A stretch of 64,000 nt of DNA, taken from contig NZ_QFYP01000001.1 of the NCBI RefSeq assembly GCF_003254505.1, forward strand, positions 3,704,001-3,768,000, read 5' to 3'. Made by a program: the position numbers and the translations under genes. The DNA is from Phenylobacterium hankyongense (GTDB lineage: Bacteria; Pseudomonadota; Alphaproteobacteria; Caulobacterales; Caulobacteraceae). This document shows positions 5,784 to 55,035 of this stretch, piece by piece. Each line of letters starts with the position of its first letter. The first letter of the stretch is position 1. The notes under the pieces are model-generated. The model saw nothing but the letters and a program-made list of their open reading frames with translations. It was not told the DNA's origin and searched no databases.

Positions 5784-5873
5784 GGTGACGTGGCCGAGTG
5801 GCTGAAGGCAACGGTTTGCTAAATCGTCATACCTGAAAGGGTATCGAGGGTTCGAATCCCTCCGTCACCGCCA
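5784..5873 (+). tRNA. tRNA-Ser (anticodon GCU)
   Basis: A complete cloverleaf with a long variable arm, as expected for serine. The 7-bp acceptor stem pairs GGTGACG with CGTCACC, the discriminator is G5870 and the CCA is encoded at 5871-5873. The anticodon loop is TTGCTAA with GCT at 5818-5820, and the T arm contains GGTTCGAATCC. It reads AGC/AGU codons. Its 3' end is duplicated at 6848-6874, marking an integration site. Confidence 0.97.
5846..5872 (+). repeat. attL-like 3' end of tRNA-Ser (direct repeat copy 1)
   Basis: The last 27 bases of the tRNA up to the CC of CCA recur at 6848-6874 with two mismatches. Duplication of a tRNA 3' end flanking foreign DNA is the signature of site-specific integration; this copy keeps the tRNA intact. 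Confidence 0.75.
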
Positions 5874-49500: not shown

Positions 49501-51291
49501 GTGGCCAGGCTCCCCGAAATTGCGACCGATTCGGCGCTGGCGCGGCTCTTCACCCAGGAGCGCGCGCAGGACGAGGCCACGTGGTTCTCGCTGCCCGGCG
49601 GCCAGAGGCTCTATGGCGCCGGCGACCCGGCCGACCATCTCTATTTCCTGCGCACCGGCCGGCTCGGGGCGTTCCGCCGCGAGGAGGGCCATGAGACCCA
49701 GTTCCTGGGGGTGATCCGGCCCGGCGAACCGGCCGGCGAGATGGCGCTGGTGGCCGGCGCGCCGCATTCGGCCGACGTGGTGGCGCTGAGGGACTCCGAG
49801 ATCTTCGCCCTGCCGCGCGACGTCTTCTTCGACGCCTGCGAGGCCGACGGTTCGGTGATGAACGAGCTGGCCCGGCTGATGATCCTGCGCACCCGCCAGG
49901 CGGCGCGCAGCGGGACCATGGGCGAGCCCTCGGTGTTCGGCTTCGTGCCGGTCGGCCAGCCCGGCGCGCTGCGGCCTATGGTGGACCGGCTGGGCGCGGA
50001 GGTGAGCCGGCTGGGCTATTCGGTCACCGTGGTGGGCGTCGAGGCGTCCAGCGCCCCGACCGAATGGTTCTCCGACGTCGAGCGGACCCACGACTTCGTG
50101 CTCTATGTGGCCGAGGCGACCGACACCGGCTGGCGTCAATCGGTGTCGCGGCAGGTCGACCGGCTGTTCCGCGTCGGGCGCGGCGACCGCAAGCCGCCCG
50201 CCAACATGCCGAGCCACTACCTCGCCGCCCCGCTGCAGGCGCAGCAGCTGGTGGACCTGATCCTGCTGCAGCCGGCCGACGCGCGGGCGCCTTCGGGGTC
50301 GGAGGCGTGGATGGACGCCACCAACCCGGCGCGGCTGTTCCACATGCGGCGCGACAACCCGGACGACGTGCGCCGGATCGCGCGGGTGCTGACCGGCCAG
50401 TCCGTGGGCCTGGTGCTCTCCGGCGGCGGCGCGCGCGCCTACGCCCACATCGGCGCCATCAAGGCGCTGCGCGAGCGCAATATCCCAATCGACTTCGTCG
50501 GCGGCGTTTCCATGGGCGCGATCATCGCCGCCGGCGCGGCCATGGGCTGGGACGACGCGGAACTGGATCGCCGCATCCGCGAAGCCTTCGTCGACACCAG
50601 CCCGCTCGACGACATCGCCCTGCCGATCCTCGCCCTGACCCGGGGCGAGAAGGTCAGCGAGCGGCTCGCCCAGCACTTCGGCGACACCGAGATCGCCGAC
50701 CTCTGGCTGCCGTTCTTCTGCCTGTCGTCCAACCTGACCACCGGCGCCTATCACCTGCATCGTCGCGGCCTGCTGCGGCAGGCGCTGCGGGCCACCATCG
50801 CCCTGCCCGGGGTGATGCCGCCGGCCACCCTCGACAACAACGTGCTGGTCGACGGCGCGGTGATGAAGAACTTCCCGGCCGACGTGATGCGCGCCTCGCA
50901 GCTCGGCCCGATCGTCGGCGTCGACGTCACCGCCGGCCGCAGCATCACCGCCGACGACGTGGCGCGGCCCGAGTCCGCCTGGCGCTGGATCTGGTCCGGC
51001 CAGTGGAAGAAAGGACCGCCGATCGTCTCGCTGCTGATGCGCGCGGCCACCGTCTCCACCGGCCGGGACCTGGCGGCGGCCCGCGAGGCCACCGACGTAC
51101 TGGTCCTGCCCGACACCACCAAGGTGGAAATCCGCGACTGGAGCGCCTACGCCCCGGCCGTGGCCGAGGGCTACCGCGCCATGCTGGCGGCGCTCGACAA
51201 GCTCGACCGGCCCGTCCAGGAACTCCGCCGTCGCGCCAGCCTGCAGGACGAGGACGCGACCGTCACAGCCCGGACGGCGTCCGCCGGCTGA
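49501..51291 (+). CDS. Patatin-like phospholipase with N-terminal cNMP-binding-like domain
   Basis: A 596-residue protein of the NTE/RssA type. Residues 20-140 form a cyclic-nucleotide-binding-like beta roll (LYGAGDPADHLYFLRTGRLG; GEPAGEMALVAG). A middle domain (about 150-270) resembles the dinucleotide-type region often found between the two. The patatin domain has oxyanion GGGARAYAHIG (about 306), nucleophile Ser337 in GVSMG and Asp451 in VDGAVM. It probably deacylates phospholipids at the membrane, perhaps gated by a nucleotide. The GTG start is at 49501. No clear membrane helix. Confidence 0.9.
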   Translation: MARLPEIATDSALARLFTQERAQDEATWFSLPGGQRLYGAGDPADHLYFLRTGRLGAFRREEGHETQFLGVIRPGEPAGEMALVAGAPHSADVVALRDSEIFALPRDVFFDACEADGSVMNELARLMILRTRQAARSGTMGEPSVFGFVPVGQPGALRPMVDRLGAEVSRLGYSVTVVGVEASSAPTEWFSDVERTHDFVLYVAEATDTGWRQSVSRQVDRLFRVGRGDRKPPANMPSHYLAAPLQAQQLVDLILLQPADARAPSGSEAWMDATNPARLFHMRRDNPDDVRRIARVLTGQSVGLVLSGGGARAYAHIGAIKALRERNIPIDFVGGVSMGAIIAAGAAMGWDDAELDRRIREAFVDTSPLDDIALPILALTRGEKVSERLAQHFGDTEIADLWLPFFCLSSNLTTGAYHLHRRGLLRQALRATIALPGVMPPATLDNNVLVDGAVMKNFPADVMRASQLGPIVGVDVTAGRSITADDVARPESAWRWIWSGQWKKGPPIVSLLMRAATVSTGRDLAAAREATDVLVLPDTTKVEIRDWSAYAPAVAEGYRAMLAALDKLDRPVQELRRRASLQDEDATVTARTASAG

Positions 51292-51370
51292 CCGCGCGCC
51301 GGAAACCCTCAGGGCGGGGTTTGCACACCGGCAGGAACCGCCCCATATTCGTCATCCCTGTTCAACAGTT

Positions 51371-51387
51371 GAAAGGAGGTGATCCAG
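51371..51387 (+). promoter_or_regulatory. 17-nt perfect complement of the 16S rRNA 3' end (extended Shine-Dalgarno)
   Basis: GAAAGGAGGTGATCCAG is the exact complement of the 16S 3' tail sequence around GGATCACCTCC. It abuts the GTG of a 20-codon ORF at normal spacing. Usual ribosome-binding sites pair over 4-8 bases. Confidence 0.8.
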
Positions 51388-51449
51388 TGTCTCATTTGTC
51401 ATTCGCCGACGCGCTGGAAATCTCCGTTGAGAATCAAGGTCGTAACTGA
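51387..51449 (+). CDS. Small ORF (20 aa) behind an extended Shine-Dalgarno
   Basis: GTG 51387 to TGA 51449 encodes a 20-residue acidic peptide beginning (f)MSHLSFADALEISVEN. It is preceded by the 17-nt 16S complement and followed by a stem-loop that begins at its stop codon, then by an intrinsic terminator at 51527. The unit is therefore a short transcript of perhaps 200 nt between the patatin gene and a convergent chaperone gene. It has no hydrophobic segment or signal. It could be a leader-like peptide, a translated regulatory RNA or a ribosome-directed element. Not recognised as a known family. Confidence 0.6.
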   Translation: MSHLSFADALEISVENQGRN

Positions 51450-51484
51450 CCCCAGCGCTCACGCGGACAAATGCTGGGTGTCAG
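51446..51484 (+). other. Stem-loop at the end of the small ORF
   Basis: CTGACCCCAGC pairs with GCTGGGTGTCAG with a single offset base, enclosing the stop codon in the 5' arm. Such a structure could respond to ribosomes on the small ORF. Confidence 0.5.
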
Positions 51485-51526
51485 ACGGCCGTCGGCGACG
51501 ACGTCCTGCGGCAGCCCAACAAAGCG

Positions 51527-51554
51527 GAAGCCCCGGCGGAGACGCCGGGGCTTC
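51527..51554 (+). terminator. Rho-independent terminator after the small ORF
   Basis: GAAGCCCCGGCG-GAGA-CGCCGGGGCTTC is a perfect 12-bp stem with a GAGA loop, followed by TTGCATT. It is close to the stop of the convergent chaperone gene and may serve both. Confidence 0.8.
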
Positions 51555-51578: not shown

Positions 51579-52595
51579 TCAGCGCCGGGCTATGGCCACG
51601 GCGTCCGACTTCCGCGGCGCGACCGGCAGGTTCGGTCGATAGGCCAGGGTGTGGGTCGCCAGCACCCGGCCGGGCATGGTGTCGTCGTCGGTGAAGGTGA
51701 TCCTCAGAAGCTCGTCGCCGAACGGCTCCCGGTTCAGCGCCAGGCGTACGCGGCGGCGCTCGATCTCGGGGTAGACGCCGACCCCCTTGGCGAGGCTGAG
51801 CGGCGCCTCGTCGGAGCGGCGGCCGCGGACCTCGATATTGCCGAACAGGGAATTGGCCCCGACCCGCACGAGGTCGAACGAAAGCACCGGCGTGGAATCG
51901 GCGGAGCCGCCGCCGCCCGGCGTCTCCAGGGTGAGGTTCTCGATCTGCGCGCGGACGTCGGCGGCGGCCGGCCGCACGATCACCGGCAGGCTGGTGGTGA
52001 ACAGCGCCAGCACCCGGAAGGCGAGCCCCCGCTCGCCCGCCGCGGCGGCGTCCGCGGTCAGCCCGGCTTCGGGCGGCGGAATGGCGGTGATCGACAGGTG
52101 GGTGCGGACCTCGCCCGCTATGGCTGCGGACCGCGGGACGCTGATCCGGACGGTCTCGCCCGACTTCGGCTCCAGGGTGATGCGCCGGGGCATGAACTTC
52201 AGCACCGGCTTCGCCGAGCGCATCCGGTCCGCGACAGTCCTCTGCGCCGGGTCGGCGGCTGCGTCGGCGAGTTCCACGAGACGCCCGTCCGGCAGCATCA
52301 CCCGGTCGACCAGGGTGACGTCGAAGGTGGTGCGCGGCCCCGTGCGGTTGAAGATGTAGACGCTGGCCGAGCGGCCGGGGGTCAGCGTGAGGCGCCTGGG
52401 CGAAACGTCTAGCCCCGCCCCGAGGGTGTCGAGGCGGGCCGCATCGCGTCGGTCCAGCGGGGTCGGCTGGGGTTGCGACCAGGCCATCGGCGCCGCAGCC
52501 GCGGCGATCAATACGCCCGCCACGAGGATTCGCCGGACATCGGCAAGGCCGGCGTCGGCGCGACTCCGCCCCCGGTGCGCCATCGCCTGCAGCAT
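51579..52595 (-). CDS. Periplasmic pilus-type (PapD-like) chaperone
   Basis: A 338-residue exported protein. A signal segment (VRRILVAGVLIAAAAAPMAWSQ) is followed by an N-terminal Ig-like domain with LDVSPRRLTLTPGRSASVYIFNR and RITLEPKSGETVRISVPR, the strand-G1-like alternating hydrophobic pattern of PapD-type chaperones. The second domain holds LFTTSLPVIVR and ends with GRVLATHTLAYRP. No usher or pilin genes adjoin. ATG 52595 is taken; ATG 52583 is also possible. The length exceeds classical chaperones (about 230). Confidence 0.7.
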   Translation of the reverse strand: MLQAMAHRGRSRADAGLADVRRILVAGVLIAAAAAPMAWSQPQPTPLDRRDAARLDTLGAGLDVSPRRLTLTPGRSASVYIFNRTGPRTTFDVTLVDRVMLPDGRLVELADAAADPAQRTVADRMRSAKPVLKFMPRRITLEPKSGETVRISVPRSAAIAGEVRTHLSITAIPPPEAGLTADAAAAGERGLAFRVLALFTTSLPVIVRPAAADVRAQIENLTLETPGGGGSADSTPVLSFDLVRVGANSLFGNIEVRGRRSDEAPLSLAKGVGVYPEIERRRVRLALNREPFGDELLRITFTDDDTMPGRVLATHTLAYRPNLPVAPRKSDAVAIARR

Positions 52596-52857
52596 CCTGT
52601 CAGAATCTCCCAATTCGCGCCGGCTCTGGAGGCCCGCGTCAGGCGTCACGACTCGACGCCTATGTGATGAAGCCGACAGACCACGACGACCGGAGGTTGC
52701 GCAACGTCTTCCCGGCGACGACACCCCTTTCGCGATCTGGCGCGCCGCCCGCCCAGGAACGAGGCGCCGCGGGGAGGCGCTGCGGAATCGCGGAGCGCCA
52801 GGCTGTACCTTGCGCGCCGAATGGTCTGTAAGGGGCGCGAGACGAACGGGGGTGCGC

Positions 52858-55035
52858 GTGAGGACTATCGGCGTTTTTCTGGTGGTGGCCGGTCTTGTCG
52901 CCTGCGCGGCGCCGGCCGCCGCCGACGATCTCTCGCGCTGGAAGCAGGAGGCCGCCGACGTCAGCATCGTGCGCGACGACTGGGGGATCGCCCACATCCA
53001 CGGCAAGACCGACGCGCAGGCGGTGTTCGGGGCGAGCTACGCCCAGGCCGAGGACGACTTCAACCGCGTCGAGGCCAACTACCTGACCGCGCTGGGCCGC
53101 ACCGCCGAGGCGGAGGGCGAGGCCGCCATCTGGCAGGACCTGCGCCAGAAGCTGTTCATCGATCCCGCAGACCTGAAGGCGAAATACGCCGCCAGCCCCG
53201 CGTGGCTGAAGGCGCTGATGGACGGCTGGGCCGACGGGCTCAACTACTACCTGGCGACCCACCCCAAGGTGACGCCGCGGGTGATCCGGCGGTTCGAACC
53301 CTGGATGGCGCTCAGCTTCAGCGAAGGCAGCATCGGCGGCGACGTCGAGCGGATCTCCCTGCCCGAGCTCAAGGCCTTCTACGGCCAGCCGCGCACGGCG
53401 GCGCTCAGCCCGGAAGAGACCGGCGCGCGGTTCGTCGAGCCCACCGGCTCCAACGGCTTCGCCATCGCGCCGTCGAACACCGCCGGCGGCCACGCCCTGC
53501 TGCTGATCAACCCGCACACCTCGTTCTTCTTCCGCTCGGAGCTGCAGATGAGCAGCGACGAGGGGCTCGACGCCTATGGCGCGGTGACCTGGGGCCAGTT
53601 CTTCATCTACCAGGGCTTCAACGCCCATGCCGGCTGGATGCACACCTCGAGCGGCGTCGACGTGGTCGACGAGTTCGCCGAGACCATCGTCAGCCGCGAC
53701 GGCAAGCTCTTCTACCGCTACGGCGGCGAGGAGCGGCCGGTCGCCGTCTCCACCATCGCCGTGCCCTATCGCGCCAAAGGCGGGGCGATGGCCAGCCGGA
53801 CCTTCACCGTCTACCGCACCCATCATGGCCCGATCGTCCGCGCCGCCGACGGCAAGTGGATCGCCATGGCGCTGATGAACACGCCCGTGCCGGCGCTGGA
53901 GCAGTCGTTCCTGCGCACCAAGGCCACCGACTATGCGTCGTTCATGAAGATCGCCGAGCTGCGCGCCAACTCGTCCAACAACACCATCTTCGCCGACTCC
54001 AAGGGCGAGATCGCCTACCTGCACCCGCAGTTCATTCCCCGGCGCGACGACCGCTTCGACTACACCAAGCCCGTGGACGGCGCGGACCCGGCCACCGACT
54101 GGAAGGGGCTGCATGCGCTGGACGAGGCGCCGCACCTGCTCAACCCGCCGAACGGCTGGATCTTCAACACCAACGACTGGCCCTACTCCGCCGCGGGTCC
54201 GTACAGCCCCAAGCTCGCGGACTATCCCCGCTACATGGACACCCACGGCGAGAACCCGCGTGGGATCCATGCCACCCGGGTGCTGCAGGCGCGCAAGGAC
54301 TTCACCCTGCCGACCCTGATCCAGGCGGCCTACGACCCCTACCTGCCGGCCTTCGCGACGCTGATCCCGGCGCTGCTCCAGGCCTACGACGAGACGCCGG
54401 CGGGGGATCCGCTGAAGGCCCGGCTGGCCGACCAGGTCGCGGCGCTGCGGGCCTGGGATTGTCGCTGGTCGACGGACTCGGTCCCGACCTCGCTGGCGGT
54501 GTTCTGGGGCGAGGCCCTGTGGGCCGTCGCCGCGCCGGAGGCCATCCGCGAGGGCCGTTCGCCCTATGACGAGATGCTCAGCCGCACGACCGCGGCGCAG
54601 AAGCTGCAAGCGCTGGCGCAGGCGTCCGATCGCCTGAAGGCGGACTTCGGCCGCTGGCGCACGCCCTGGGGCCAGATCAACCGCTTCCAGCGCCGCACCG
54701 GCGACATCGTCCAGCCGTTCAAGGACGCCGCCCCGAGCATTCCGGTGGCTTTCACCTCGTCGCAGTGGGGCTCGCTGGCCGCCTTCGGCGCCCAGCCCTA
54801 CGAGGGGACGAAGCGCTACTACGGGACCAAGGGAAACTCGTTCGTGGCCGTCGTCGAGTTCGGCGACAGGGTCCGCGCCATGGCCATCTCGGCCGGCGGC
54901 GAGAGCGGCGATCCGAAATCCCCGCACTTCGACGACCAGGCCGTCCGCTACACCCAGGGCGCGCTGCGGGAGGTCTACTTCTATCCCGAGCAGCTCACCG
55001 GCCACACCGAGCGGCGCTACCACCCGGGCCAGTGA
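52858..55035 (+). CDS. Penicillin acylase family (Ntn-hydrolase) protein
   Basis: A 725-residue periplasmic acylase precursor. The signal peptide (VRTIGVFLVVAGLVACAAPAAA) may be cleaved near residue 22. The alpha-chain region begins VSIVRDDWGIAHIHGKTDAQ. The autocatalytic site is PTGSNGFAIAPSNT, with Ser198 becoming the N-terminal nucleophile of the beta chain, followed by LINPHTSFFFRSELQM. Relatives cleave amide bonds of beta-lactams, acyl-homoserine lactones or lipopeptides; the substrate here is unknown. GTG 52858 is chosen over GTG 52852. Quorum-quenching activity is possible but unproven. Confidence 0.9.
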   Translation: MRTIGVFLVVAGLVACAAPAAADDLSRWKQEAADVSIVRDDWGIAHIHGKTDAQAVFGASYAQAEDDFNRVEANYLTALGRTAEAEGEAAIWQDLRQKLFIDPADLKAKYAASPAWLKALMDGWADGLNYYLATHPKVTPRVIRRFEPWMALSFSEGSIGGDVERISLPELKAFYGQPRTAALSPEETGARFVEPTGSNGFAIAPSNTAGGHALLLINPHTSFFFRSELQMSSDEGLDAYGAVTWGQFFIYQGFNAHAGWMHTSSGVDVVDEFAETIVSRDGKLFYRYGGEERPVAVSTIAVPYRAKGGAMASRTFTVYRTHHGPIVRAADGKWIAMALMNTPVPALEQSFLRTKATDYASFMKIAELRANSSNNTIFADSKGEIAYLHPQFIPRRDDRFDYTKPVDGADPATDWKGLHALDEAPHLLNPPNGWIFNTNDWPYSAAGPYSPKLADYPRYMDTHGENPRGIHATRVLQARKDFTLPTLIQAAYDPYLPAFATLIPALLQAYDETPAGDPLKARLADQVAALRAWDCRWSTDSVPTSLAVFWGEALWAVAAPEAIREGRSPYDEMLSRTTAAQKLQALAQASDRLKADFGRWRTPWGQINRFQRRTGDIVQPFKDAAPSIPVAFTSSQWGSLAAFGAQPYEGTKRYYGTKGNSFVAVVEFGDRVRAMAISAGGESGDPKSPHFDDQAVRYTQGALREVYFYPEQLTGHTERRYHPGQ

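Follow-up and report, generated by a model that had tools for sequence, protein, structure and literature searches.

A stand-alone CC2171-like RNA with conserved translation signals in Phenylobacterium hankyongense and its possible role as a ribosome-gated switch

The transcription unit and its extended Shine-Dalgarno sequence

The window analyzed here, a stretch of 64,000 nucleotides from Phenylobacterium hankyongense, holds a short unit of about 200 nt between two protein genes. Upstream on the same strand lies a gene (49501-51291, +) for a cyclic-nucleotide-binding/patatin-like phospholipase with a neuropathy-target-esterase-type P-loop-like domain. The next gene (51579-53006) is on the minus strand and is therefore convergent. 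Between them, the following features were recognized:

51321-51326, +: -35-like hexamer TTGCAC, proposed from the sequence, 17 nt ahead of the -10-like hexamer
51344-51349, +: -10-like hexamer CATATT, in Caulobacteraceae relatives kept 26-31 nt ahead of AAAGG
51363-51554, +: match to Rfam RF01867 (CC2171, "caulobacter sRNA"), E 2.7e-11
51371-51387, +: extended Shine-Dalgarno sequence GAAAGGAGGTGATCCAG, a 17-nt perfect complement of the 16S rRNA 3' tail, with GGAGGT at 51375-51380
51387-51449, +: 20-codon ORF VSHLSFADALEISVENQGRN, GTG start, TGA stop at 51447-51449
51393-51400, +: 5' arm of the closing helix, CAUUUGUC (codons 3-5), paired with 51466-51473 and without variation in the window's subtype
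51411-51417, +: GCGCUGG, overlapping the mimic; its alternative pairing with 51452-51458 leaves the Shine-Dalgarno sequence free (open state)
51414-51425, +: mimic of the 16S tail, CUGGAAAUCUCC, inside the ORF, pairing with 51375-51380 and 51384-51387 (closed state)
51452-51458, +: CCAGCGC, just 3' of the stop codon, rival of the Shine-Dalgarno sequence for the mimic
51466-51473, +: 3' arm of the closing helix, GACAAAUG, partner of codons 3-5
51527-51554, +: terminator hairpin, 12 bp, G+C-rich, with a similar hairpin kept in relatives

An earlier note on this DNA had pointed to a 17-nt perfect match to the 16S 3' end, and the match indeed holds at 17/17 positions. GAAAGGAGGTGATCCAG is the exact complement of CTGGATCACCTCCTTTC, which is part of the alphaproteobacterial 16S tail TGCGGCTGGATCACCTCCTTTCT. 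This tail was taken from several other alphaproteobacterial genomes; a 16S gene was found neither in the assembly of the window's genome nor in five relatives. Within the 3.84 Mb genome, the 17-mer is found exactly only once, and one further site comes within two mismatches of it, inside unrelated sequence. The note had also placed the pairing far beyond that of normal ribosome-binding sites. This agrees with a predicted -22.2 kcal/mol for pairing with the 16S tail, compared with -15.1 kcal/mol for the strongest site and a median of -6.6 kcal/mol among the 42 long ORFs of the window, to which the comparison was confined. The GTG-started ORF of 20 residues that it had described next to the 17-mer is likewise present, with its start codon overlapped by the last base of GAAAGGAGGTGATCCAG. 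Two of its structural claims held in part. The stem-loop at the stop codon exists in the window (51446-51484) but is not conserved in most relatives, where other helices are. Similarly, the intrinsic terminator has its 12-bp stem, but the U-tract on the plus strand is weak (CUUCUUGCAUU) and a pattern scan for terminators called the hairpin on the minus strand only. Because of the weak tract and the minus-strand call, the terminator may be bidirectional and shared with the convergent gene. As a whole, the 201-nt RNA of the window folds with z = -4.5 relative to shuffled sequence.

Sequence comparison also bears on how the unit would be expressed. TTTGC at the -35 position and CCCATATT are kept in 20 relatives, in Caulobacteraceae at the right spacing, and transcription would start near 51356. 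Flanking genes vary between lineages, and no conserved downstream gene was found on either strand when relatives across lineages were compared. A cis leader was rejected, as the genes that follow are not the same across lineages and can be on either strand. That the match arose by chance, or was left from the 16S primer AAGGAGGTGATCCAGCC as a relic of the assembly, was rejected on the class-wide conservation in the same context. As far as sequence can tell, the element is a stand-alone unit with its own putative promoter and not merely the 3' end of the patatin mRNA, an alternative which the earlier note had itself raised, because it carries conserved promoter elements of its own and follows different upstream genes in other lineages.

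Relationship to CC2171 and distribution

The match to RF01867 came from a permissive Rfam scan, and with 56.3 bits it stays below the curated cut-off of 75 bits and is missed by the default scan. A search of its own genome with the RF01867 model gave E 8.5e-11, and the nearest relative of the same subtype scores 43. Two other Rfam matches on the minus strand, rnk_pseudo and BSnc120, were discarded, as they cover the terminator hairpin only. The only gathering-level Rfam match in the window is also its only tRNA gene, a tRNA-Ser (GCT) at 5784-5873 on the plus strand.

Five genomes (L005, L008, L009, L020 and L024) have the same upstream patatin-like gene as the window, in a cluster of 14, and their copies score 88-105; tested for positional orthology with such copies above the cut-off, the window copy proved to occupy the corresponding place. 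Because the relatives behind the same gene score this high, the window copy can be read as drifted: judged from locus and sequence, it is a divergent positional ortholog of CC2171 that falls below the cut-off, not a curated member. The two share the locus, which follows this patatin gene in 14 relatives, as well as the 5' block CAACA..GAAAGGAGGTGATCCAGTGTCTCA, the closing helix and the terminator hairpin, and the window copy aligns without gaps to the conserved RF01867 5' block with GGAGGUGAUCC. They differ in the arms of the closing helix, which are CAUUUGUC:GACAAAUG in the window and CAUUGUC:GACAAUG in the canonical RNA, and in an extra segment of ~50 nt ahead of the terminator in the window copy, which separates the terminator from a closing helix that is invariant in the subtype. 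This subtype was found in 15/390 genomes of the bacterial family, spread over five genera. The Rfam entry types CC2171 as an sRNA, and its model has neither an ORF nor a helix between the Shine-Dalgarno sequence and the mimic.

MH_s33, a relative from Mesorhizobium huakuii (Rfam RF01867), is reported as a sequencing-supported transcript of ~215 nt (PMC5596092), and it is for this relative only that support from RNA sequencing has been reported. A survey of Caulobacter sRNAs (Landt 2008) is cited in PMC4117421. In the openly accessible literature searched, we found no functional study of CC2171, no paper that pairs CC2171 with Caulobacter and no match to probe-like sequence strings of the element; RF01867 is named there in two papers only, neither of which deals with function.

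Beyond the window, the element is present in 41/60 close relatives. The RF01867 model by itself finds matches in 61/289 Alphaproteobacteria, while the pattern of Shine-Dalgarno sequence and start codon, AAAGGAGGTGRTCNNRTGTC, occurs in 74/398 genomes of the phylum, with every match in Alphaproteobacteria; the reversed control pattern gave 0 matches in the same 398 genomes. Named matches include Sphingomonas, Novosphingobium, Erythrobacter, Methylobacterium, Bosea, Azospirillum, Paracoccus and Brevundimonas, and there is nearly always one copy per genome. The core AAAGGAGGTG is near-invariant among relatives. In the pattern searches, the apparent invariance of the Shine-Dalgarno sequence is inflated by patterns that selected for it. 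One genome, G245, has the pattern in two places, with the start contexts GATCGAATG and GATCCGATG. In three Azospirillum-type genomes (L151, L195 and L212), the same Shine-Dalgarno sequence and start are followed by an ORF of 57-59 aa with a signal-peptide-like N-terminus; this is probably a separate protein gene and not the small RNA. In one relative, L055 (1-267, 1493-1665), the CC2171 copy is preceded on its own strand, at a distance of ~1.2 kb, by the 3' part of the alphaproteobacterial tmRNA.

Conserved translation signals and competing helices

The earlier note had proposed a search of related genomes for the 17-mer followed by a short ORF with conserved residues. Such a search finds the Shine-Dalgarno sequence, the start, the length and the stop conserved, but not the residues of the peptide. 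All 183 sites have ATG or GTG behind the Shine-Dalgarno sequence, as the start of a short ORF. Its length is 18 codons in 17/17 sequences of the Rhodobacterales-type and in 34/36 of the Sphingomonadales-type, 20 codons in 9/9 of one order relative and 19-23 codons in Caulobacteraceae. Lineages were labeled here by peptide motif instead of by tree, and as the sequences share ancestry, these numbers do not stand for independent events. TAA, TAG and TGA all occur as stops. In the Sphingomonadales-type set, no triplet column of any frame other than that of the stop has 30% or more stop triplets; 94% of the entries in the stop column are TAA, TAG or TGA, none is TGG, and the preceding codons vary freely. 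Codon positions 1, 2 and 3 are equally diverse in each of the five groups, so that no excess at the third position, as a sign of constraint at the protein level, was found in any of them. The peptides are not hydrophobic in the window or in the main lineages. With start, length and stop of the ORF conserved and the peptide not, we infer that it is translation as such which has been conserved. In the Rhodobacterales-type set, a second GGAGG-like purine stretch recurs at codons 14-15, about four codons ahead of the stop; it could pair with a 3' mimic or pause ribosomes.

The conserved ORF lies within an RNA that also carries an imitation of the 16S tail. The mimic reads CUGGACCUCC in Caulobacteraceae, CUGGAUC..CCUC in the Rhizobiales-type, ACUGGCUCAUCUCCUUG in the Rhodobacterales-type and GCGGAUCACCUCCG in L144, and it sits within the ORF in some lineages and 3' of it in others. 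Because the middle of the RNA varies in length across lineages, each helix was examined through specified base pairs and by swapping partners. In every lineage, few shuffled decoys of the Shine-Dalgarno sequence find as good a partner in the RNA as the Shine-Dalgarno sequence itself does (mean share 0.01-0.16), and in the Sphingomonadales-type its partner is weaker. Among 26 canonical relatives, 93% of cells allow the helix between the Shine-Dalgarno sequence and the mimic, and one of its pairs shows compensatory changes. A second helix, which joins the mimic to GAGGUCC at the ORF's end, forms in 88.5% of cells and has two pairs with such changes. The two helices are mutually exclusive, and in the canonical relatives the covariation of each structure exceeds that of all shuffles, with much of the score coming from the closing helix common to both structures and with few compensatory changes in the mimic helices themselves. 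In the window subtype the helices are invariant, so that covariation is uninformative there. Forced into either fold, the window copy gives -90.0 kcal/mol for the open and -90.2 kcal/mol for the closed state, an equality which is model-dependent, as with different ends the closed fold is favored by ~5 kcal/mol.

The closing helix is kept despite sequence change. One of its pairs is UA in 11, AU in 10, CG in 2 and UG in 2 among the 26 relatives, and when partners were swapped, 0/5000 permutations matched the own partners in each of three groups. In the Sphingomonadales-type and Rhodobacterales-type sets, the arms vary too little for the partner-swap test. This pairing of codons 3-5 with 51466-51473 is conserved, unlike the stem-loop at the stop codon which the earlier note had described; the relationship to CC2171 and the anti-Shine-Dalgarno mimic had also gone unnoticed there.

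A possible ribosome-gated switch and its rivals

The features seen in the sequences, namely the unit, its Shine-Dalgarno sequence, an ORF with a fixed stop, the mimic, the competing helices of Caulobacteraceae and the closing helix, are consistent with an RNA whose fold would be set by the ribosome. Our main reading is that this RNA of ~200 nt, a stand-alone divergent copy of CC2171, acts as a ribosome-gated switch, and we give it a probability of about one half. The full-length Shine-Dalgarno sequence would capture 30S subunits and drive translation of the short ORF, whose peptide would be of no matter. Without a ribosome, the mimic in or just behind the ORF would pair with the Shine-Dalgarno sequence and shut the site, while the rival partner near the stop codon could pull the mimic off so that the Shine-Dalgarno sequence opens. 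Codons 3-5, paired with the segment ahead of the terminator, would lock the RNA. A translating ribosome would break the closing helix at initiation, then cover the mimic and finally, at termination, cover the competitor. In this way the position of the ribosome would set the fold, and the RNA could report the capacity for initiation or the speed of translation. Since no gene follows, the output would probably lie in the RNA itself, either as stability or as base pairing of the freed mimic or Shine-Dalgarno sequence in trans. A broader version, in which a class-wide stand-alone alphaproteobacterial RNA reads out free ribosomes or the translation state by translating a meaningless short ORF, with the full-length Shine-Dalgarno sequence to start it and the internal 16S-tail mimic to hold it in check, and passes this on in trans as an RNA sensor of ribosome activity, is put forward only tentatively, and we hold it to be doubtful. 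The earlier note had seen a small, apparently translated RNA, a view to which the conserved promoter, full-length Shine-Dalgarno sequence, ORF and terminator lend weight, and its idea of a ribosome sensor is compatible with our reading.

Other readings account for parts of the same evidence. The C-rich anti-Shine-Dalgarno segment is found in every lineage, no cis gene was found and Rfam types the family as sRNA, all of which would suit a base-pairing sRNA whose CCUCC-bearing mimic targets the Shine-Dalgarno sequences of other mRNAs, with translation controlling its exposure or degradation. The strongest partner of the mimic is, however, the RNA's own Shine-Dalgarno sequence, the place of the mimic shifts between lineages and no link of the family to targets was found in the literature searched, so that we regard this as rather unlikely. 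The duplex with the 16S tail is in turn the focus of a reading as a 30S sponge or hibernation RNA, in which 14-17 nt of pairing would titrate small subunits and the ORF would be incidental. The predicted strength of this duplex (-32 kcal/mol for the 17-mer, compared with -15.5 kcal/mol for the internal partner) and the near-invariant AAAGGAGGTG fit it. However, a sponge needs neither a conserved ORF length and stop codon nor an internal mimic and a covarying closing helix, and in some relatives the pairing with 16S is disrupted in its 3' half (GACCC, GGTCG) but otherwise kept. The plain sponge suggested by the earlier note is thus less favored, and we consider it unlikely.

The same conserved start, ORF length and stop would also be expected of a small mRNA that encodes a functional micropeptide and secures its production through a very strong ribosome-binding site, much as the earlier note had supposed when it spoke of ensuring translation of the peptide. 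The first 9-12 residues are nearly constant within the Rhodobacterales-type and Sphingomonadales-type sets, and the Azospirillum-type group joins the same Shine-Dalgarno sequence to an ORF of 57-59 aa with a signal-peptide-like start. Yet the three codon positions are equally diverse in every lineage, and the constant residues have constant third positions as well, which points to constraint on the RNA. Moreover, lineages have no peptide sequence in common past the first few codons. A particular peptide as the purpose of translation is therefore unsupported, and we think this reading quite improbable. Lastly, a short ORF with competing helices and a terminator resembles ermC, trp and the DUF1127 uORF of Sinorhizobium (PMC12218461), and the element could by this likeness be a translation attenuator or leader for a neighboring gene. 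With downstream genes that differ and lie on either strand, and with the next gene of the window convergent, this has very little probability.

CC2171 is filed in Rfam as a non-coding RNA, whereas our analysis finds conserved translation signals and a built-in imitation of the 16S tail. The literature searched appears to hold no description of its translated nature, of the fixed stop without conservation of the peptide, of the mimic with its competitor, of the spread over lineages or of the window's subtype. If the reading as a ribosome-gated switch is true, selection would act on the translation of an ORF whose sequence is arbitrary and which is not part of a cis-acting leader, an unusual case, and the RNA would be a direct candidate for a sensor of free ribosomes, which has long been sought.

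Several known systems share parts of this design. Type I toxin mRNAs such as aapA1 of Helicobacter pylori (PMC6733600) are also short, structured mRNAs in which an internal anti-Shine-Dalgarno sequence hides the Shine-Dalgarno sequence, and their folds are likewise able to switch; in contrast to them, the window element encodes no hydrophobic toxin peptide, and its peptide is not conserved. With ribosome-controlled attenuators (ermC, tnaC, trpL and the DUF1127 uORF of Sinorhizobium meliloti, PMC12218461) it would have in common that translation of a short ORF selects between competing helices, but the element stands alone and no regulated gene follows. Dual-function RNAs such as rnTrpL and SgrS (PMC10117765) similarly combine a small RNA with a short ORF, and differ from the element in that its peptide sequence shows no protein-level constraint.
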